This document shows positions 23,066 through 31,258 of a stretch of DNA of 64,000 nucleotides, piece after piece. Origin of the DNA: Flavihumibacter solisilvae. Its GTDB lineage: Bacteria > Bacteroidota > Bacteroidia > Chitinophagales > Chitinophagaceae. The stretch lies in contig NZ_JSVC01000015.1 of assembly GCF_000814475.1 (NCBI RefSeq), positions 310,001-374,000 on the forward strand, read 5' to 3'. How positions within the stretch are numbered: the first letter of the stretch is position 1; each line of letters starts with the position of its first letter. The notes below the pieces were generated by a model. It was given only the letters and a program-made list of their open reading frames with translations, was not told the origin of the DNA and made no database searches. A program made the translations under genes and the position numbers.

Positions 23066-23123
23066 TGGGGCCGGTGTTGGCAATTTTTGCAGAAGACCGT
23101 AAATTGCCCGGGGGCTATTGACT

Positions 23124-23687
23124 ATGCACGACATCGAACCTTTTTATAACTGGAGACACATTTATGTGAGTGAGGAAGATGAACATTCGCCTTTCTATGG
23201 CCGTGTATATTCTGAGTTTGAGTTTTCCCAGACCATTTACAATTACTATATCCATCCGCAGTGGGATGAGTTCGGGTCACGTACGCTTTACATGAAAGTG
23301 ATCATGGCGGACTATGAGGAGCACTATGCCATCATTGAACTGATAGGTGAATGGAATGATGCCATCGAAAATGACATTATGAGCCTGAAGCGCGATGTGA
23401 TCGATCAGTTTCATTCGAATGGCATTTACAAATTCATCATCATCGCCGAGAACGTACTCAATTTTCATAGCGGGGATCGCGACTATTACGAAGAATGGTA
23501 TGAAGAAATGATAGATAACAATGGCTGGGTCGTTTTGCTCAACATGCCGGAACAGACGCAATATGATTTCAGGGAAGCCAAGTTGCACCGCTACTTGGAA
23601 TTGCTTGAACTGCCCGCCTGGCGTACGTTCAAGCCTTATCATCTCTTTAAGAAAATAGACGATGAACAACGCAAAAGGTTGTCCTGA
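23124..23687 (+). CDS. Conserved-looking hypothetical protein
   Basis: ATG at 23124 gives 187 residues. A TTG two codons upstream is also in frame. I recognise no domain. The protein is acidic and rich in aromatic residues (FYNWRHIYVSEEDEHSPFYG; YYEEWYEEMIDNNGW). There is no signal peptide or membrane segment, and it appears to alternate beta strands and helices (YAIIELIGEWNDAIENDI; KFIIIAENVLNF). It starts 58 bp after murQ and ends 81 bp before the aromatic leader peptide. The good codon use and the absence of rival frames support a real cytoplasmic protein. No function can be assigned. Confidence 0.75.
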   Translation: MHDIEPFYNWRHIYVSEEDEHSPFYGRVYSEFEFSQTIYNYYIHPQWDEFGSRTLYMKVIMADYEEHYAIIELIGEWNDAIENDIMSLKRDVIDQFHSNGIYKFIIIAENVLNFHSGDRDYYEEWYEEMIDNNGWVVLLNMPEQTQYDFREAKLHRYLELLELPAWRTFKPYHLFKKIDDEQRKRLS

Positions 23688-23768
23688 AAGCAATTAAATA
23701 GCGGGTAAACTAACATCTGTAAGGAAAAAAACTTTTTTCGTTATCAATTCATTGATTATTTTTACTTC

Positions 23769-23852
23769 ATGATCACAGCGAAAGCATTTGGCCGATTTTA
23801 TTTTTACTTCTACTTTTTTACAGGCAGAAGGCCGGCGATGCTTTGTGTTTGA
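23769..23852 (+). CDS. Phe/Tyr-rich leader peptide of the aromatic amino-acid operon
   Basis: A 27-residue reading frame opens with ATG at 23769 and ends with TGA at 23850-23852. Codons 10-17 (23796-23819) are TTT TAT TTT TAC TTC TAC TTT TTT, encoding FYFYFYFF; Phe also occurs at codon 7. Such runs of one or two regulatory amino acids mark leader peptides such as pheL of E. coli, where ribosome stalling controls a terminator. Here the terminator (23886-23920) lies 33 nt downstream, and the next gene makes phenylalanine, with tyrosine synthesis in the same operon. Both amino acids are therefore monitored by the codons. The peptide has no function expected beyond translation. This is read directly from sequence; the mechanism is inferred. 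Confidence 0.8.
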   Translation: MITAKAFGRFYFYFYFFTGRRPAMLCV

Positions 23853-23920
23853 TCAACCAAAAACGTTCATCAACAACTAACATAAAGAGTCCCGGCAGAA
23901 AGCCGGGACTCTTGTTTTTT
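23789..23920 (+). promoter_or_regulatory. Putative transcription attenuator of the aromatic operon
   Basis: Segments can pair in the classical 1:2, 2:3, 3:4 order. Segment 1, TGGCC (23789-23793), can pair with segment 2, GGCCG (23830-23834). Segment 2, as GCCGG (23831-23835), can instead pair with CCGGC (23892-23896) of the terminator 5' arm, segment 3. Segment 3 pairs with segment 4 to make the terminator. GGCAGAAGGCCGG (23823-23835) and GGCAGAAAGCCGG (23894-23906) are near copies, which explains the competition. A ribosome stalled at Phe/Tyr codons 10-12 would cover segment 1 and favour 2:3, letting transcription continue. The 2:3 core is only five base pairs, so folding must be tested. Confidence 0.55.
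23886..23920 (+). terminator. Attenuator terminator hairpin directly before pheA
   Basis: A perfect 11-bp stem, AGAGTCCCGGC (23886-23896) and GCCGGGACTCT (23902-23912), with loop AGAAA is followed by TGTTTTTT. The T run ends at the base before the pheA ATG (23921). A strong terminator in front of the first gene of an operon is regulatory rather than a boundary. Confidence 0.85.
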
Positions 23921-24751
23921 ATGGCAACAAGAGTATCAATACAAGGTTACGAAGGCAGCTTTCACCAGGTGGCTGCACAGCAATTCTTCGGTAAGCAGGT
24001 GGAAGTGATTCCCTGCGACACATTCCGCGAAGTGATCAGGATTGCAGGCAGCAAAAAAGAAAGTGACGGTGGTGTAATGGCCATTGAAAATTCCATCGCC
24101 GGCAGTATCCTTCCCAATTACAACCTGCTGCAAAAAAGTAATCTCCGCGTAGTTGGTGAAGTCTATCTCCAGATCAAGCAGAACCTGCTTGCCAATCCGG
24201 GGGTACAGCTTGAAGATATCCGCGAGGTGCATTCCCATCCCATGGCAATCCTGCAGTGCATCGATTACCTCGAGAAGTACAACTGGAAACTGGTAGAGAC
24301 GGAAGACACGGCGCTTAGCGCAAAACATATTCACCAGAAGAGGCACAGGCATGCTGCTGCCATTGCAAGTAAACTTGCGGCTGACCTGTTCGAGCTGAAT
24401 GTGCTGACTCCGAACATCCATACCATGAAGAACAATTATACCCGCTTCCTGGTATTGAAACGCGAAGACCTGGTAGCGCCGGTAGCAGGGGCGAACAAAG
24501 CTTCGGTTAATTTTCATACCGACCATTCGAGGGGAAGCCTTGCCCGCGTGCTCAGTCGCATTGCGGATGGTGGTATCAATCTCAGCAAACTGCAAAGTTT
24601 TCCTATTCCCGGCAGCGACTGGGAATACAGCTTCCATGCTGATATGGAGTTTGACAGCCTTGAACAATTTGAATCGATCATCGCAGCAATAAAACCGCTT
24701 ACCGCAGCCTTGCAGGTATATGGCATATACAAAAACGGAAGAACACCATGA
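23921..24751 (+). CDS. pheA: Prephenate dehydratase with C-terminal ACT domain
   Basis: This 276-residue cytoplasmic enzyme begins with VSIQGYEGSFHQVAAQQFFG. It keeps the PDT motifs VMAIENSIAGSILPNYNLL and HSHPMAILQC, and has MKNNYTRFLVLKRED carrying the conserved Thr-Arg-Phe catalytic triplet. Residues about 195-270 form an ACT domain (GSLARVLSRIADGGINLSKLQSFP) that usually binds phenylalanine for feedback control. It converts prephenate to phenylpyruvate. It is first of the operon, and its ATG abuts the attenuator T tract. A more upstream reading from 23843 would pass through the terminator stem and is rejected. The stop overlaps the next start by ATGA. Confidence 0.94.
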   Translation: MATRVSIQGYEGSFHQVAAQQFFGKQVEVIPCDTFREVIRIAGSKKESDGGVMAIENSIAGSILPNYNLLQKSNLRVVGEVYLQIKQNLLANPGVQLEDIREVHSHPMAILQCIDYLEKYNWKLVETEDTALSAKHIHQKRHRHAAAIASKLAADLFELNVLTPNIHTMKNNYTRFLVLKREDLVAPVAGANKASVNFHTDHSRGSLARVLSRIADGGINLSKLQSFPIPGSDWEYSFHADMEFDSLEQFESIIAAIKPLTAALQVYGIYKNGRTP

Positions 24752-25941
24752 ACATCACCACAGCAAAAAGATTGAATGGAATCGGGGAATATTATTTTTC
24801 GCAGAAGCTGCGTGAAATAGATTCACTGAACCGGCAGGGGAAGGCCATTATCAACCTCGGTATCGGAAGCCCGGATCTGCCTCCGCACCCGGATGTGGTG
24901 CAGACCCTGAAAGAAGAAAGTGCAAAGCCCAATGTACATGCTTACCAGAATTATAAGGGAAGCCCGGTATTGCGTACTGCCATGAGCGACTGGTACAGGA
25001 AGTGGTACAATGTTGAACTTGATCCCGAAACGGAAGTTCTTCCCCTCATCGGGAGCAAGGAAGGCATTATGCACATCTGCATGACATACTTAAATGAAGG
25101 TGACGAAGTGCTGATCCCGAATCCTGGTTACCCGACCTACAGCAGTGCAGTAAGGCTTGCCGGTGGTGTGCCGGTGTCTTATGAACTGCACGCTTCGCTG
25201 AACTGGGAGCCGGACCTCGATGCGCTTGGAAAAACTGATCTCAGCAAAGTGAAGCTCATGTGGGTCAATTATCCGCACATGCCTACAGGCCAGCTTCCCT
25301 CGTTGCAGTTCTTTACGAAGCTGGTGGAGTTTGGCAGGAAACATAATATACTAATCTGCCACGATAACCCATACAGTTTCATCCTGAATGAGAAGCCAGT
25401 AAGCCTCCTTGCTGTTGAAGGTGCCCGTGATGTGGTGATCGAACTCAACAGTTTAAGTAAAAGTCATAACATGGCAGGATGGCGGGTTGGAATGCTTAGC
25501 GGCAGTAAGACCCGGATCGATGAAGTGCTCCGCTTCAAAAGCAATATGGACAGTGGTATGTTCCTTCCGGCACAGCTTGCAGCGGCAAAGGCGCTGAGCC
25601 TCGGAAAGGAATGGTACGACAGCGTAAACGCAGTGTACGCACGCAGGAGAAAACTGGTTTTTGAACTGCTCGACCTGCTGCAATGCACCTACGACCCCAA
25701 CCAGGTTGGCATGTTTGTCTGGGCAGCGATTCCCGACGCTCACGCGGATGGATATGCTTTGAGTGATAATGTACTTTATAATGCGAATGTGTTCATTACA
25801 CCTGGCGGGATTTTCGGATCTGCAGGTAATAACTATATCCGGGTTAGCCTGTGCAGTCCGGAAGAAAAGATCATTCTTGCAATGGACCGGATCAAATTAG
25901 CGGCCACGGCAGCAGCAACCAGTAAAGCAGAAGCTCAATAA
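24748..25941 (+). CDS. PLP-dependent aminotransferase class I/II, probable aromatic aminotransferase
   Basis: This 397-residue fold-type I aminotransferase has INLGIGSPDLPPHPDVV near the N-terminus, VHAYQNYKGSPVLRTAM, GSKEGIMHICMTYL and PNPGYPTYSSAV. The PLP lysine lies in LNSLSKSHNMAGWRVGM (about residue 240), and SLCSPEEKI closes the active site. Related enzymes are called LL-diaminopimelate or aspartate aminotransferases. Its ATG overlaps the pheA stop and tyrA starts one base after its own stop, so it most likely transaminates phenylpyruvate and 4-hydroxyphenylpyruvate to Phe and Tyr. This role is an inference from operon position. It acts in the cytoplasm. Confidence 0.9.
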   Translation: MNITTAKRLNGIGEYYFSQKLREIDSLNRQGKAIINLGIGSPDLPPHPDVVQTLKEESAKPNVHAYQNYKGSPVLRTAMSDWYRKWYNVELDPETEVLPLIGSKEGIMHICMTYLNEGDEVLIPNPGYPTYSSAVRLAGGVPVSYELHASLNWEPDLDALGKTDLSKVKLMWVNYPHMPTGQLPSLQFFTKLVEFGRKHNILICHDNPYSFILNEKPVSLLAVEGARDVVIELNSLSKSHNMAGWRVGMLSGSKTRIDEVLRFKSNMDSGMFLPAQLAAAKALSLGKEWYDSVNAVYARRRKLVFELLDLLQCTYDPNQVGMFVWAAIPDAHADGYALSDNVLYNANVFITPGGIFGSAGNNYIRVSLCSPEEKIILAMDRIKLAATAAATSKAEAQ

Positions 25942-25942
25942 A

Positions 25943-26791
25943 ATGGAAAGGAAAAAAATAGCCATAGTAGGCGTTGGATTGATTGGTGGCTCCCTGGCAC
26001 TGCAGCTGAATGAAAAGGGGATGGCCGCCGGTATAATCGGGGTTGAAAAAAGCAGTGAACATGCGACCCGCGCTGTTGAACTTGGACTTGTTGATGAAGT
26101 GTTACCACTGGAGGAGGCCATTGAGCGCAGTGAGGTGGTCATTCTCGCCGTTCCGGTAGACCAGATGGTTGCCCTGCTGCCGAAGGTACTTGACCTGGTA
26201 ACCAACCAGATCGTCTTTGACGCCGGTTCCACCAAGGAGCAAATGATCAATGCGGTTTCCGGTCACCCTAAAAGAGGCCGTTATGTTGCCACACACCCGA
26301 TGTGGGGAACCGAATACAGCGGTCCGCAGGCAGCAGTGAAAAATGCATTTGAAAACAAGGCGGTGGTACTCTGTAATACTGCTGAAAGCGACGCCGATGC
26401 TGTGGAGTGGACCCGGTTCGCTTATAAAAAAATCGGCATGCACCTGCTGGAAATGAATGCTGTGGCGCATGACCTTCACGCAGCCTACGTAAGTCATATC
26501 TCGCACATCACATCCTTTGCCCTCGCCAATACGGTGCTGGAAAAGGAGAGGGAAGACCAGGCGATCTTTGAGCTGGCCAGTGGTGGTTTTGAAAGCACGG
26601 TGCGTCTTGCCAAAAGTAATCCCGCCATGTGGGTACCCATCTTCATGCAGAACCGCGATAATGTACTGGACGTCCTTAACGAGCACATCAGCCAGCTCCG
26701 CAAGTTCAAGTCCTGCCTTGAAAAAGAGAACTATGATTACCTGCAGGAACTGATTGAAAACGCAAACAGGATCCGCAGAATTCTTGGATAA
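25943..26791 (+). CDS. tyrA: Prephenate dehydrogenase
   Basis: This 282-residue enzyme has an N-terminal Rossmann domain (IAIVGVGLIGGSLALQL, residues 6-22). The all-helical dimerisation domain is typical of TyrA. Prephenate-site residues appear in FDAGSTKEQMI and YVATHPMWGTEYSGP, and ASGGFESTVRLAKSNPAMW is characteristic. It oxidises prephenate to 4-hydroxyphenylpyruvate with NAD+. There is no ACT domain, so feedback control by tyrosine would have to act through the attenuator or DAHP synthase. It begins one base after the aminotransferase stop and ends 30 bp before the DAHP synthase gene. Confidence 0.93.
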   Translation: MERKKIAIVGVGLIGGSLALQLNEKGMAAGIIGVEKSSEHATRAVELGLVDEVLPLEEAIERSEVVILAVPVDQMVALLPKVLDLVTNQIVFDAGSTKEQMINAVSGHPKRGRYVATHPMWGTEYSGPQAAVKNAFENKAVVLCNTAESDADAVEWTRFAYKKIGMHLLEMNAVAHDLHAAYVSHISHITSFALANTVLEKEREDQAIFELASGGFESTVRLAKSNPAMWVPIFMQNRDNVLDVLNEHISQLRKFKSCLEKENYDYLQELIENANRIRRILG

Positions 26792-26821: not shown

Positions 26822-27913
26822 ATGCAAGCAACTGACAACAAAACAATGAAACAAATCACACAGCAGGCATGGGCGAAACGTCCCCTGATCATCTCAGGAC
26901 CCTGCAGCGCAGAAACGGAAGAGCAAGTACTCGCTACGGCACAGCAGCTCGCCAATACAGGTAAGGTTGACGTTCTCCGGGCGGGGATCTGGAAACCACG
27001 TACGCGTCCAGGCTCATTTGAAGGTATTGGTACTAAGGGACTGCCATGGCTCCAGCAGGCAAAAAAGCTGACTGGTCTGCCGGTTGCAGTGGAAGTGGCT
27101 ACAGCAAAGCAGGTGGAAGATGCCCTTCATTTTGATGTGGACATCCTCTGGATCGGTGCTCGTACTACAGTTAACCCGTTCAGTGTTCAGGAAGTTGCCG
27201 ACGCCCTTCGTGGTGCCGACGTTCCAGTGCTGATCAAAAACCCCATTAACCCCGACCTGGAATTGTGGCTTGGCGCTGTTGAAAGAGTTGCAAAGTCAAA
27301 CATTAAACAGATTGGTCTCATTCACCGTGGATTCTCATCATACGGTAACACAGAATACCGCAATGCACCAATGTGGCACCTTGCGATTGAAATGAAAAGG
27401 CGCAACCCGGAGCTGATGGTGATCAACGACCCTTCACACATCTGTGGCCGTCGTGATATTCTCATGGATGTAATGCAAAAGGCGATTGACCTCGATTACG
27501 ATGGACTGATGATCGAAAGCCATATTGATCCAGATAATGCCTGGAGTGATGCAAAACAGCAGGTTACTCCTGAGAAGCTCGCTGAAATGCTCAATACACT
27601 GGCATGGAGAAAAGAGGATGTGGATTCAGAATCATACCATGCAGCCCTGGAGAAACTCCGCCAGCAGATCAATCACCTCGATGACGAACTGTTGCAGATC
27701 CTCGGCCAGCGGATGAAAGTTGCAGAACAGATCGGTACCTACAAAAAGAATAACAACATCACGATCCTCCAGACCAACAGGTGGAACGAGATCCTTGACC
27801 GTGCTTTCCTGAAAGGCGATAAACTTGGCCTGAGCAAAGAATTCATCACGCGGTACTTCGATGCAGTACACATGGAAAGCATCAACCACCAGAACAAGAT
27901 CATGAACAGTTAA
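26822..27913 (+). CDS. Bifunctional DAHP synthase (type I beta) / chorismate mutase (AroQ)
   Basis: This is a 363-residue fusion. Residues about 20-260 form DAHP synthase: PLIISGPCSAETEEQ, AGIWKPRTRPGSFEG, LWIGARTTVNPFSVQE, VLIKNPINPDLELW, LIHRGFSSYGN and INDPSHICGRR. Residues about 275-360 form an AroQ helical chorismate mutase: ALEKLRQQINHLDDELLQILGQRMKVAEQIGTYKK. It makes the first shikimate intermediate and also converts chorismate to prephenate, the substrate of both pheA and tyrA in this operon. Fusion lets prephenate or the mutase domain modulate the synthase, as known in related Bacteroidota and Bacillus enzymes. An alternative ATG lies eight codons in. Confidence 0.93.
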   Translation: MQATDNKTMKQITQQAWAKRPLIISGPCSAETEEQVLATAQQLANTGKVDVLRAGIWKPRTRPGSFEGIGTKGLPWLQQAKKLTGLPVAVEVATAKQVEDALHFDVDILWIGARTTVNPFSVQEVADALRGADVPVLIKNPINPDLELWLGAVERVAKSNIKQIGLIHRGFSSYGNTEYRNAPMWHLAIEMKRRNPELMVINDPSHICGRRDILMDVMQKAIDLDYDGLMIESHIDPDNAWSDAKQQVTPEKLAEMLNTLAWRKEDVDSESYHAALEKLRQQINHLDDELLQILGQRMKVAEQIGTYKKNNNITILQTNRWNEILDRAFLKGDKLGLSKEFITRYFDAVHMESINHQNKIMNS

Positions 27914-27931: not shown

Positions 27932-28951
27932 ATGGAAAGTAAAAAGATCAGGATAGGAAATGCTGTAACGGAATACCATTTTAATGCTTCTCTGTCAAAG
28001 CTTCAGCTGGTTGCAGACAGGAAGTATTCAGTGATCATCACTGATGAAAACCTGTACGACAGCTATAAGAAGAAGCTCAAAGGCTGGAACACGATCGTTG
28101 TCAAACCCGGCGAGGAGTTTAAAGTGCAGCAGACCGCTGACACGATCGTCGACACGCTGGCGGAGATGGAGGCCGACAGGAAGACAACTCTTATCGGCTT
28201 TGGTGGTGGAGTAATCACCGACCTGACGGGGTATGTTGGCGCAACTTATATGCGCGGCATCCGCACCGGGTTTATCCCGACAAGCCTGCTCGCGATGGTA
28301 GACGCATCGATTGGTGGGAAGAATGGAATCGACGTTGGTTTATATAAAAACCTCGTAGGAACAATCCGCCAGCCTGCCTTCCTGTTCTTTGATGTTTCCC
28401 TGTTGCAGTCGCTTCCCGAAAGCGAGTGGCAGAACGGATTTGCAGAGATCATCAAACATTCATGCATCAAGGATGCCCCGATGTTCCGCGAACTTGCAGA
28501 ACATGATCTTGCGTATTACCGTGGCCGGAAGAATGCAATTGCTGCATTGGTTCGAAGGAATGCCCTGCTGAAGACCAAAGTGGTTCAGCGGGATGAGACT
28601 GAACAGGGCGAAAGAAAGCTCCTGAATTTCGGTCATACCCTCGGGCATGCGCTTGAGAACCAGTTTGAACTTTCCCACGGTCAGGCTGTTTCCATTGGCA
28701 TGACCTATGCCGCTCATCTTTCATCGTCTTTGCTTGGTTTCAGGCAGACCGAAAAAGTGGTATCACTTATTTCCAGTTATGGACTGCCTACCTATGCAAG
28801 TTTCGATCGGACCAAAGTGTTTGATGTACTTAAGCATGACAAGAAAAGGGAACGTGATACTATTCACTACATCCTGCTTGACAGGATCGGAAAGGGAGTG
28901 GTACATACGTTGCCGCTTGACCAGGTGAAAACTATAATAGAACAATTATAA
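27932..28951 (+). CDS. aroB: 3-dehydroquinate synthase
   Basis: This 339-residue NAD- and metal-dependent enzyme has VVKPGEEFKVQQTADTI, the NAD loop LIGFGGGVITDLTGYVGATYMRGI, PTSLLAMVDASIGGKNGID, and KRKLLNFGHTLGHALE-type metal-ligand His residues (here in ERKLLNFGHTLGHALENQ). It cyclises DAHP to 3-dehydroquinate. It is slightly short at the N-terminus compared with E. coli AroB (362), as in other Bacteroidota. It lies 18 bp after the DAHP synthase gene and 14 bp before aroA, within the same transcript. Assignment is certain. Confidence 0.95.
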   Translation: MESKKIRIGNAVTEYHFNASLSKLQLVADRKYSVIITDENLYDSYKKKLKGWNTIVVKPGEEFKVQQTADTIVDTLAEMEADRKTTLIGFGGGVITDLTGYVGATYMRGIRTGFIPTSLLAMVDASIGGKNGIDVGLYKNLVGTIRQPAFLFFDVSLLQSLPESEWQNGFAEIIKHSCIKDAPMFRELAEHDLAYYRGRKNAIAALVRRNALLKTKVVQRDETEQGERKLLNFGHTLGHALENQFELSHGQAVSIGMTYAAHLSSSLLGFRQTEKVVSLISSYGLPTYASFDRTKVFDVLKHDKKRERDTIHYILLDRIGKGVVHTLPLDQVKTIIEQL

Positions 28952-28965
28952 CTGCTAATTACAGT

Positions 28966-30240
28966 ATGATCGCAACCATAGAACCTTCCGTATTGGCGGG
29001 TGAGATTTATGCGCCGGCATCCAAGAGTTCGATGCAGCGTGCCTGTGCGGCAGCGCTTGCTGCCGGCGGGGTTACCATAATCCGGAATCCCGGTGAGTCG
29101 AATGATGATAAAGCAGCACTCGGCGTCATCAGCGCATTGGGTGCAGAAGTAAAAAAGTCTGCCGGTTCACTGGAAGTGCAAAGTTCGGGTGTGCATGCAC
29201 GCGAGCAGGCTGTGCATTGTGGCGAAAGCGGGCTTGGGATCAGGATGTTCACGCCACTGGTTGCATTGAATGATCGTGAGATCACCATCACCGGTGAGGG
29301 CAGTCTTGTTACAAGGCCGATGGACTTCTTCGACTCTGTGCTTCCGCAACTTGGTGTCGAAGTTCACTCGAATAACGGCAAGCTCCCCCTTAAAGTAAAG
29401 GGACCCCTTCAGCCTCGCAACATAACCATCGACGGATCACTGAGCTCACAGTTCCTGACCGGGATCCTGTTTGCTTATTCAGCCAGCGGCGCCAGTGATG
29501 TGGAAGTGCAGGTTACAGACCTGAAAAGCAAACCGTATGTGGACCTTACGCTCGCAGTTATGCAGGCGTTCGGGATGAACGTGCCGGAGAACCGGAACTA
29601 TGAATCTTTCTATTTCAAAAAGCAAGCTGCAAGTGTTGAACCTGTAAAGAGAACATATACGGTTGAAGGTGACTGGAGCGGCGGTGCATTCCTGCTCGTG
29701 GCAGGTGCAATTGCAGGGAATGTAACCATCAAAGGGCTTGATGTATTTTCCACGCAGGCAGATAAGGCGGTATTGCAAGCGCTCATGAGCTGCGGTGCGG
29801 GAATCAGCATCGAAGCCGAGCAGATAATACTGCGTCCTATGCCCCTTAAGGCATTCCATTTCAACGCAACAGACTGTCCCGACCTGTTTCCGCCGCTTGT
29901 TGCGCTTGCCGCATACTGCGAAGGCACGACAGTTATCGAAGGCGTTGGAAGGCTCGCACATAAAGAGAGCGACAGGGCGCTGACTCTGCAGGAAGAATTT
30001 GGAAAGATGGGTGTGTCAATTGAACTTCAGGGTGACCTGATGATCATTCATGGCGGAAACCAGGTGAATGGTGCTGCGGTATCATCACGCCATGATCACC
30101 GCATAGCAATGGCAACGGCAGTAGCCGGCCTGAAAGCAACAGGCACAACAACCATTTCTGATGCTGATGCCATCAACAAGTCTTACCCGGTCTTTTTCGA
30201 CCATATCAGGCAGCTTGGGGCCAAAGTAAAATACGCATGA
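28966..30240 (+). CDS. aroA: 3-phosphoshikimate 1-carboxyvinyltransferase (EPSP synthase)
   Basis: This 424-residue enzyme of the two-domain inside-out barrel fold has APASKSSMQRACAAALAAGG with the conserved Lys and Ser of the phosphate site. It also has GESGLGIRMFTPL in place of the usual GNAGTAMR, SQFLTGILFAYSASG, TVEGDWSGGAFLLVAGAI, and RHDHRIAMATAVAG near the C-terminus. It transfers enolpyruvate to shikimate-3-phosphate. The N-terminal glycine-rich loops depart from the E. coli sequence, as in several Bacteroidota forms, so class II behaviour cannot be judged here. It lies between aroB and aroC. Confidence 0.93.
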   Translation: MIATIEPSVLAGEIYAPASKSSMQRACAAALAAGGVTIIRNPGESNDDKAALGVISALGAEVKKSAGSLEVQSSGVHAREQAVHCGESGLGIRMFTPLVALNDREITITGEGSLVTRPMDFFDSVLPQLGVEVHSNNGKLPLKVKGPLQPRNITIDGSLSSQFLTGILFAYSASGASDVEVQVTDLKSKPYVDLTLAVMQAFGMNVPENRNYESFYFKKQAASVEPVKRTYTVEGDWSGGAFLLVAGAIAGNVTIKGLDVFSTQADKAVLQALMSCGAGISIEAEQIILRPMPLKAFHFNATDCPDLFPPLVALAAYCEGTTVIEGVGRLAHKESDRALTLQEEFGKMGVSIELQGDLMIIHGGNQVNGAAVSSRHDHRIAMATAVAGLKATGTTTISDADAINKSYPVFFDHIRQLGAKVKYA

Positions 30241-30268: not shown

Positions 30269-31258
30269 ATGAACGCATTCGGAAAACTATTCAGGGTTAC
30301 GATAATTGGTGAATCACACGGACCTGCGGTGGGAGTTATTGTAGACGGAGTTCCGCCCGGTCTTCCGCTTTCAGCGGACGATTTCCAGGAAGACATCGAA
30401 AGGAGAAAAGGTGGTATGCAGAAAGGAACCACACCACGTAAAGAGGATGACTTTCCTTTATTCCAGACAGGATTGTTCAATGGCCATTGCACAGGAGCAC
30501 CACTGACGATAATGTTTGAAAATAAGAACACGAGAAGCGGTGATTATGAAAAGCAGCGGGCGGTGCCCAGGCCTGGGCATGCTGACTTTGTCGCACACCA
30601 GAAATTCGGTGGCTTTGAAGATTTCAGGGGTGGTGGACATTTCAGCGGCCGGCTTACGGTCGGACTTGTTGCTGCCGGTGTAGTTGCTAAAAAGATCTTA
30701 TCTTCCTTAAGTATACGCGCTACGATCCTTGAGATAGGCGGGGTAGCAGATGTGGAGGCCGGGTTACAGAAAGCAATTGATGCGAAGGATTCTATCGGTG
30801 GCATAGTGGAGTGCCGGGTTGAAGGACTCCCGATCGGTTGGGGTGAACCTTTTTTCGATTCTGTCGAGTCTGTCATCAGTCATGCCGTCTTCGCCATTCC
30901 TGCAGTGCGGGGTGTTGAATTCGGAACAGGGTTCCGGGCAGCAAAAATGTTCGGTATCGAGCACAATGATGCCATTGAGGACCAGTCTGGCAAAACAAGG
31001 ACCAATCATGCTGGTGGTGTGGTAGGTGGCATAACCAACGGGAACGAATTGGTGTTTCGCATAGCCATCAAGCCAACATCCAGCACGCCTAAAGAGCAGT
31101 TAACACTTAACTGGGAAACCGGTGAACAGGAGACATTTTCGGTAAAGGGCAGGCATGATTTATGTATAGCATTGCGCGTTCCTGTCGTACTTGAAGCTGT
31201 AACTGCTATTGCACTTGCAGATTTAATGATGCAAACCAGGCCTAACGTAAAACAATAA
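30269..31258 (+). CDS. aroC: Chorismate synthase
   Basis: This 329-residue enzyme has the family signatures TIIGESHGPAVGVIVDGVPPGL, ENKNTRSGDYEK, AVPRPGHADFVAHQKFGG and FRGGGHFSGRLTVGLVAAG. It also keeps TRTNHAGGVVGGITNG and GRHDLCIALRVPVVLEAV. It removes phosphate from EPSP using reduced FMN to make chorismate. The protein is about 30 residues shorter than the E. coli enzyme (361), but all active-site motifs are present. It starts 28 bp after aroA and ends 7 bp before the DUF952 gene. Confidence 0.95.
   Translation: MNAFGKLFRVTIIGESHGPAVGVIVDGVPPGLPLSADDFQEDIERRKGGMQKGTTPRKEDDFPLFQTGLFNGHCTGAPLTIMFENKNTRSGDYEKQRAVPRPGHADFVAHQKFGGFEDFRGGGHFSGRLTVGLVAAGVVAKKILSSLSIRATILEIGGVADVEAGLQKAIDAKDSIGGIVECRVEGLPIGWGEPFFDSVESVISHAVFAIPAVRGVEFGTGFRAAKMFGIEHNDAIEDQSGKTRTNHAGGVVGGITNGNELVFRIAIKPTSSTPKEQLTLNWETGEQETFSVKGRHDLCIALRVPVVLEAVTAIALADLMMQTRPNVKQ

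Follow-up and report, generated by a model that had tools for sequence, protein, structure and literature searches.

The region directly upstream of pheA in Flavihumibacter solisilvae very probably harbors a ribosome-mediated transcription attenuator which, judged from its sequence, would sense charged tRNA-Phe and tRNA-Tyr. All positions refer to the window, i.e. the whole analysed stretch of 64,000 nucleotides (contig NZ_JSVC01000015.1, positions 310,001 to 374,000). Anatomically the element is a classical attenuator: a short ORF contains a run of codons for Phe and Tyr, the end products of the operon; an intrinsic terminator is located between this ORF and the first gene in 79 of 80 sequences, the window included, the remaining one (L079) possessing a hairpin with an insufficient T tract; and a mutually exclusive antiterminator, for which compensatory change is found, overlaps the leader ORF. 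The response to the two amino acids is predicted from this architecture. The individual features are compiled in Table 1.

Table 1. Features of the putative attenuator and of the downstream operon in the window.
Feature	Position	Strand	Remarks	Basis
-7 promoter box TATTTTTA	23757..23764	+	5/6 positions of Bacteroidota consensus TAnnTTTG; ends 4 nt before leader ATG	
Leader peptide ORF	23769..23852	+	27 codons + stop, MITAKAFGRFYFYFYFFTGRRPAMLCV; ATG at 23769, stop ends 23852	read directly; relatives
Segment 1	23770..23794	+	pairs with segment 2 when free of ribosome; fold of 23769-23858 = -25.9 kcal/mol	
Control codons FYFYFYFF	23796..23819	+	codons 10-17, 5 Phe + 3 Tyr	
Segment 2	23831..23855	+	partner of segment 1 (via 23833-23855) or segment 3 (via 23831-23849)	
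Segment 3	23879..23896	+	pairs with 23831-23849 over 17 bp (antiterminator); 3′ part doubles as terminator 5′ arm	
Intrinsic terminator hairpin (segments 3:4)	23885..23913	+	12 bp, -23.1 kcal/mol	
Terminator tail GTTTTTT	23914..23920	+	adjoins pheA ATG at 23921	
pheA, prephenate dehydratase	23921..24751	+		Pfam
Class I/II aminotransferase	24748..25941	+		Pfam
tyrA, prephenate dehydrogenase	25943..26791	+	no ACT domain detected	Pfam
DAHP synthase fused to chorismate mutase (DAHPS-CM)	26822..27913	+		Pfam
aroB	27932..28951	+		Pfam
aroA (EPSP synthase)	28966..30240	+		Pfam
aroC (chorismate synthase)	30269..31258	+		Pfam

The 27-codon frame with eight consecutive Phe and Tyr codons, to which an earlier note had drawn attention, is present as described and is more than a product of chance. 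Among 500 dinucleotide shuffles of the window's 500-nt upstream region, none contains an ORF with at least seven Phe/Tyr in eight codons, a single one reaches at least six and twelve reach at least five. Furthermore, the leader RNA of the window folds with a z-score of -5.5, and none of 200 shuffles is equally stable. The window contains no Rfam match at gathering score. The 16 sub-threshold Rfam matches found at E ≤ 5 within 501 bases (BjrC68, rli61 and others) lie far under the respective gathering scores and are regarded as chance; no leader-peptide family is among them.

The GC-rich hairpin postulated downstream of the leader exists as well, with a stem of 12 instead of 11 bp and a distance to the leader stop of 32 instead of 33 nt. 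Its arms 23885-23896 and 23902-23913 form eight G-C pairs, the T run ends immediately before the pheA ATG as had been claimed, and a terminator is scored for the hairpin on either strand. The near-repeat GGCAGAA(G/A)GCCGG, from which the alternative pairings had been deduced, is located at 23823-23835 and 23894-23906, but in this form it is unconserved beyond close Flavihumibacter relatives. Outside this group the leader copy retains only (G)CCGG, and the common feature is therefore a leader that imitates the 3′ arm of the terminator. The mutually exclusive pairings themselves hold: segment 2 can take either segment 1 or the terminator 5′ arm, and these alternative stems covary in relatives.

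Downstream of the leader, Pfam confirms the gene identities of the proposed seven-gene operon pheA-aminotransferase-tyrA-DAHPS/CM-aroB-aroA-aroC. The proposed lack of an ACT domain in tyrA is borne out, with no match even at E ≤ 10, and the ACT match of pheA in the window is sub-threshold only. The closest named pheA relatives are those of Flavihumibacter species. In all 80 named loci the aminotransferase follows pheA, with tyrA and DAHPS-CM next wherever the stored DNA extends; as the loci extend at most 8 kb past pheA, 69 of them show aroA and 40 show aroC, and the operons of L093 and L098 are shorter. Using the criterion of a short frame with at least seven Phe/Tyr in ten codons not more than 500 nt upstream of pheA, the leader is present in 79 of the 80 named loci, the sole miss (L092) having just 48 nt upstream. 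A second, stricter terminator scan was negative for 11 of the 79 named leaders and for 3 of 79 other leaders of the family, the Chitinophagaceae; in 10 of those 11 the first scan had found a terminator.

A unified scan of 249 regions recovered the leader in 79/80 named regions, 13/13 of the genus, 79/84 others of the family and 44/71 from other families of the class, these group counts not being independent because the named loci and the remaining ones partly derive from the same genomes. The scan covered a subset of the 133 family genomes with pheA and 71 of 74 class matches outside the family (left out were G330, G443 and G228). Dinucleotide shuffles pass its criterion in 24 of 880 and 8 of 355 cases (2-3%), and in none of 1,235 at seven of eight. 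Leaders with terminators are found in 15 other families (f2, f3, f7, f14, f16, f33, f34, f35, f38, f41, f45, f50, f55, f58 and f69). One of the 44 leaders outside the family (L183, family f46) looks spurious and was set aside. The same criterion leaves 27 of the 71 regions from other families without a leader, among them all eight of f13 and three of the six of f16. In three f13 regions (L140, L149 and L155) inspection by eye shows a TAnnTTTG-like promoter box directly before pheA instead of a leader. Two f17 regions carry Trp/Phe/Tyr frames plus terminator that stay below the criterion, and a third one (L152) has a similar frame. Among the five misses within the family, L200 is a second pheA copy in a genome whose other copy (L218) has a leader, L215 shows a Phe-only candidate with a hairpin, and in G062 (L214) the leader sits before the aminotransferase; no leader is seen in L242 and L243. 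Overall, the Phe/Tyr runs and the terminators are kept in the 5′ regions of orthologous operons and the alternative stems covary, which is the opposite of the loss that the earlier note had named as evidence against an attenuator.

A covariance model (R1), which contains the terminator pairs only, has a single strong match in the genome of the window (E = 1.5e-17), all further matches there being weak (E = 0.39-7.9); of 195 family genomes, 130 contain a match at E ≤ 0.01. No pheA match exists in 62 Chitinophagaceae genomes (42 of these handles inferred by exclusion), and 59 of them are also devoid of a tyrA match. The leader thus seems to have been lost together with the pathway, and these genomes may belong to Phe/Tyr auxotrophs. 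Twenty unfused pheA regions from other classes of the phylum include three with the leader (G618, G504 and G544, with 60, 51 and 43% identity to the pheA of the window), and none is found in G741, likewise of another class and with 43% identity. The leader may have been transferred into other classes along with the operon.

Covariation of the alternative stems was assessed by exchanging the pairing partners between species and on a pheA tree; pair counting was dropped in favor of these two approaches because the MAFFT alignment (64 of 79 sequences), for which RNAalifold gives -2.0 kcal/mol, shifts the terminator arms by a base in several rows. The 216 leader regions of the unified scan were reduced to 210 for the swap test, corresponding to 182 distinct leaders. 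Dropped beforehand were the spurious L183, L222, where the script picked a wrong hairpin though a leader and a terminator exist, and L026, L037, L039 and L079, where it missed the terminator. Outside the family (n = 43) the 2:3 pairing averages -13.2 kcal/mol in native and -9.4 kcal/mol in swapped combinations, the native one surpassing its swapped mean in 38/43, and the 1:2 pairing -12.4 versus -9.0 kcal/mol (35/43), in contrast to the control 1:3 without any difference (17/43). Within the family (n = 139) the corresponding values are -16.0 versus -13.4 kcal/mol for 2:3 (native better in 105) and -16.7 versus -13.9 kcal/mol for 1:2 (118), with 64 for the control 1:3.

A single pair illustrates this at the level of bases. 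The leader base before CCGG and the terminator base after CCCGG combine as G-C in 76, A-T in 19, A-C in 5, G-T in 5 and C-C in 1 of 106 family leaders, the other 33 of 139 misfitting the motif and not being read. On the pheA tree (84 loci, 166 branches) ten changes occur on either side, five of them on the same branch and each from Watson-Crick to Watson-Crick (P = 5.6e-5, with branches taken as equal), and the other five on each side occur alone, partly via an A-C mismatch. In L119, the terminator 5′ arm has changed such that the terminator contains a G-U pair, and the leader carries a corresponding change. As the leader base covaries with the terminator base, peptide residues shared between leaders, such as RPGM, are at least partly a matter of RNA.

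The position of the promoter box bears on the length of the transcript. In Flavobacterium psychrophilum the -7 box has been placed at -12 to -5 (PMC9723704), from which the predicted start site in the window is 23769, the A of the leader ATG, with a predicted 5′UTR of 0 nt. Upstream of the ATG of the 182 leaders, TAnnTTTG-like boxes are most frequent at 4-10 nt and show another maximum at 30-36 nt, in agreement with a -33 element. A box 3-18 nt before the ATG is present in 135/182 leaders compared with 662/3,640 shuffles (120/139 in the family and 15/43 outside it), and one 30-45 nt before it in 97/182. For the 120 of 139 family leaders having the proximal box the median predicted 5′UTR is 3 nt. 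The leader mRNA is therefore predicted to be leaderless or nearly so, which would be unusual, as leaderless mRNAs amount to 5.5% in F. psychrophilum (PMC9723704) and 5′UTRs below 10 nt to about 3.7% in Bacteroides thetaiotaomicron (PMC7366714).

According to the proposed mechanism, transcription would start at the leader AUG or a few bases from it. With both amino acids plentiful, the ribosome would pass the FYFYFYFF run, proceed to the stop codon and cover segment 2, whereupon the terminator would form and RNA polymerase would stop before pheA. A shortage of Phe or Tyr would stall the ribosome on the control codons and thereby block segment 1; segment 2 would then pair with the terminator 5′ arm to give the antiterminator while the 3′ arm is still untranscribed, and transcription would continue into the aro operon. 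If the leader is not translated, 1:2 would form and termination would be the default.

These steps were compared with a folding model in which the RNA is free only downstream of the ribosome and sequestration of at least half of the terminator 5′ arm serves as readout. Sequestration occurs in 177 of 182 leaders when the A site is on the first core codon and in 173 when it is on the last one, compared with 5 when the ribosome has reached the stop codon. If only the sequence following the core is folded, the arm is sequestered in 178/182 native leaders versus 388/910 linker-shuffled ones, hence the measure by itself is weak; the median energies differ more, with -20.8 versus -8.3. For the window, folding as far as the 5′ arm gives -24.1 kcal/mol if the ribosome stalls at any of codons 12-17 and zero if it is at the stop codon. 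The position of the ribosome would act as a switch when the RNA is folded up to the 5′ arm, whereas equilibrium folding of the full leader yields a terminator probability of 1.00 at each of the 28 ribosome positions. Since equilibrium always favors the terminator once its 3′ arm is made, antitermination would have to be kinetic.

Three other readings of the element were considered. The aromatic nascent chain might arrest its own ribosome instead of reporting tRNA charging, given the strong amino-acid conservation of the run and the flanking KAY and RPGM, which many Chitinophagaceae leaders have in common. However, the runs are interchangeable, which distinguishes them from sequence-specific arrest peptides: Phe and Tyr replace each other at each position, and the 182 leaders have 125 distinct cores. 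In addition, the flanking residues common to these leaders lie in pairing segments of the RNA and vary along with the RNA partner, and some leaders before stand-alone tyrA genes are Tyr runs, all of which makes an arrest peptide improbable. Marginally less probable still is that the hairpin occludes the pheA start and controls translation rather than termination. The direct contact between T run and pheA ATG in the window would agree with such a role, yet in relatives the distance between hairpin and pheA match ranges from 7 to 162 nt and a T-rich stretch follows the hairpin in 79/80.

The hairpin might also terminate the transcript of the upstream gene (23118-23687), with the ORF being accidental; it scores on both strands and lies about 200 nt past that gene. 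Against this, the genes upstream of the leader vary among loci while leader and terminator remain with pheA at the head of the operon, and the leader clearly exceeds what chance would yield and base-pairs with the terminator, so that this explanation can practically be dismissed. Transcription attenuation by a translating ribosome is the reading preferred here.

Loci in which the operon is split put codon specificity to a natural test. G062 and G087 carry the leader before the aminotransferase without an intervening pheA, and in the split aro operon of G169 one Phe/Tyr leader is located before DAHPS-CM (Pfam) and another before pheA (L301, L239). Before stand-alone tyrA genes, G081 (L302/L318; tyrA by Pfam) has the run YSKYYYWYY without Phe, and two f23 genomes, G493 (L323) and G226 (L324), have TYYY frames plus hairpin; the f23 leaders contain one additional Phe, one of them starts with GTG, and both stay below the criterion used elsewhere. 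Frames in f25 before an aminotransferase-tyrA pair are mixed or Tyr (YFYFYY, YFFSYY, YYY). No leader was found at twelve other tyrA loci unlinked to pheA or without a listed pheA (G207, G210 with 271 nt only, G217, G244, G248, G292, G355, G361, G410, G443, G456 and G489). Leaders of pheA operons, by contrast, have both Phe and Tyr in 181 of 182 cores. Codon content of the leader may thus follow gene content, with Tyr runs before three stand-alone tyrA genes, a rule which for Tyr is weak. Tandem leader-terminator units before pheA, both with Phe/Tyr runs, are seen in G119 (L298), G189 (L299) and G344 (L142; second unit by eye). We incline to the view of an ancient attenuator of the Bacteroidia for two amino acids, in which one leaderless or nearly leaderless mRNA would read Phe and Tyr for a joint operon, with codons re-tuned upon operon splitting (Tyr runs before stand-alone tyrA), tandem duplication in some genera and carriage with the operon into a few other classes.

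Leader-peptide attenuation is well known from Proteobacteria, e.g. pheL/pheA and trpL, with pheL containing Phe codons only. The present element resembles these systems in its leader peptide with control codons, the 1:2/2:3/3:4 alternatives and the U tract before the first structural gene. Contrary to pheL and trpL, Phe and Tyr are mixed in one leader of a joint operon, the start is predicted to be leaderless and the gathering score of any Rfam family is missed; mixed codon content, predicted leaderless start and taxonomic range set it apart from classical attenuators. Lopatovskaya et al. 2010 reportedly is a comparative study of attenuation and may contain such cases. It is cited in PMC4833913.

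The earlier note had called a combined Phe and Tyr sensor in Bacteroidota undescribed. This is too strong, since the 2021 transcriptome of F. psychrophilum lists a conserved, unexplained 5′ element without Rfam match upstream of pheA in Flavobacteriaceae as well as clues to leader-peptide attenuation before amino-acid operons (PMC9723704). It concerns the same gene and the same class of bacteria and is likely the same element, although the passages concerned name no Phe/Tyr codons, no structure and no range past Flavobacteriaceae. Apart from this hint, no description of a Phe/Tyr leader in Bacteroidota was found in the open-access literature among the matches listed; the supplement of PMC9723704 and Lopatovskaya et al. 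2010 may hold more. The Bacteroid-trp RNA (RF01692, PMC2864571), a candidate cis-regulatory RNA of Bacteroidetes, refers to tryptophan by name and has no gathering-score match in the window. Similar to the leader described here, the attenuator RNA rnTrpL of Sinorhizobium meliloti begins with the ATG of its leader ORF (PMC7298713); it belongs to a trp operon and also acts in trans, whereas here the leaderless start is a prediction. Long 5′UTRs with small ORFs reminiscent of leader peptides have been noted in B. thetaiotaomicron (PMC7366714).

If the proposed mechanism is true, transcription and translation in Bacteroidota would be coupled tightly enough for the position of the ribosome to govern termination, in a phylum whose mRNAs are mostly devoid of Shine-Dalgarno sequences. 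Since the RNA apparently starts with the leader, the latter could serve as a simple reporter for leaderless initiation and for coupling in these bacteria. The attenuator would furthermore account for how Tyr availability acts on an operon in which no ACT domain is detectable in tyrA.

A search for a His-codon pattern in the own genome gave ten matches, and none of the eight that were read resembled a His leader. Among 20 remote regions matched by R1, nine show no convincing leader (L303-L305, L308, L310 and L312-L315). Short Ile/Val-rich frames with terminators are present before ilvD in G086 and G150 and before a class IV aminotransferase, probably ilvE, in G100 and G179, the start codon being ambiguous in G150 and G179 and Pfam having been run on one gene of each pair. 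These regions (L306, L311, L307 and L309), all from Chitinophagaceae, are matched by R1 with E-values of 3e-4 to 7e-3.
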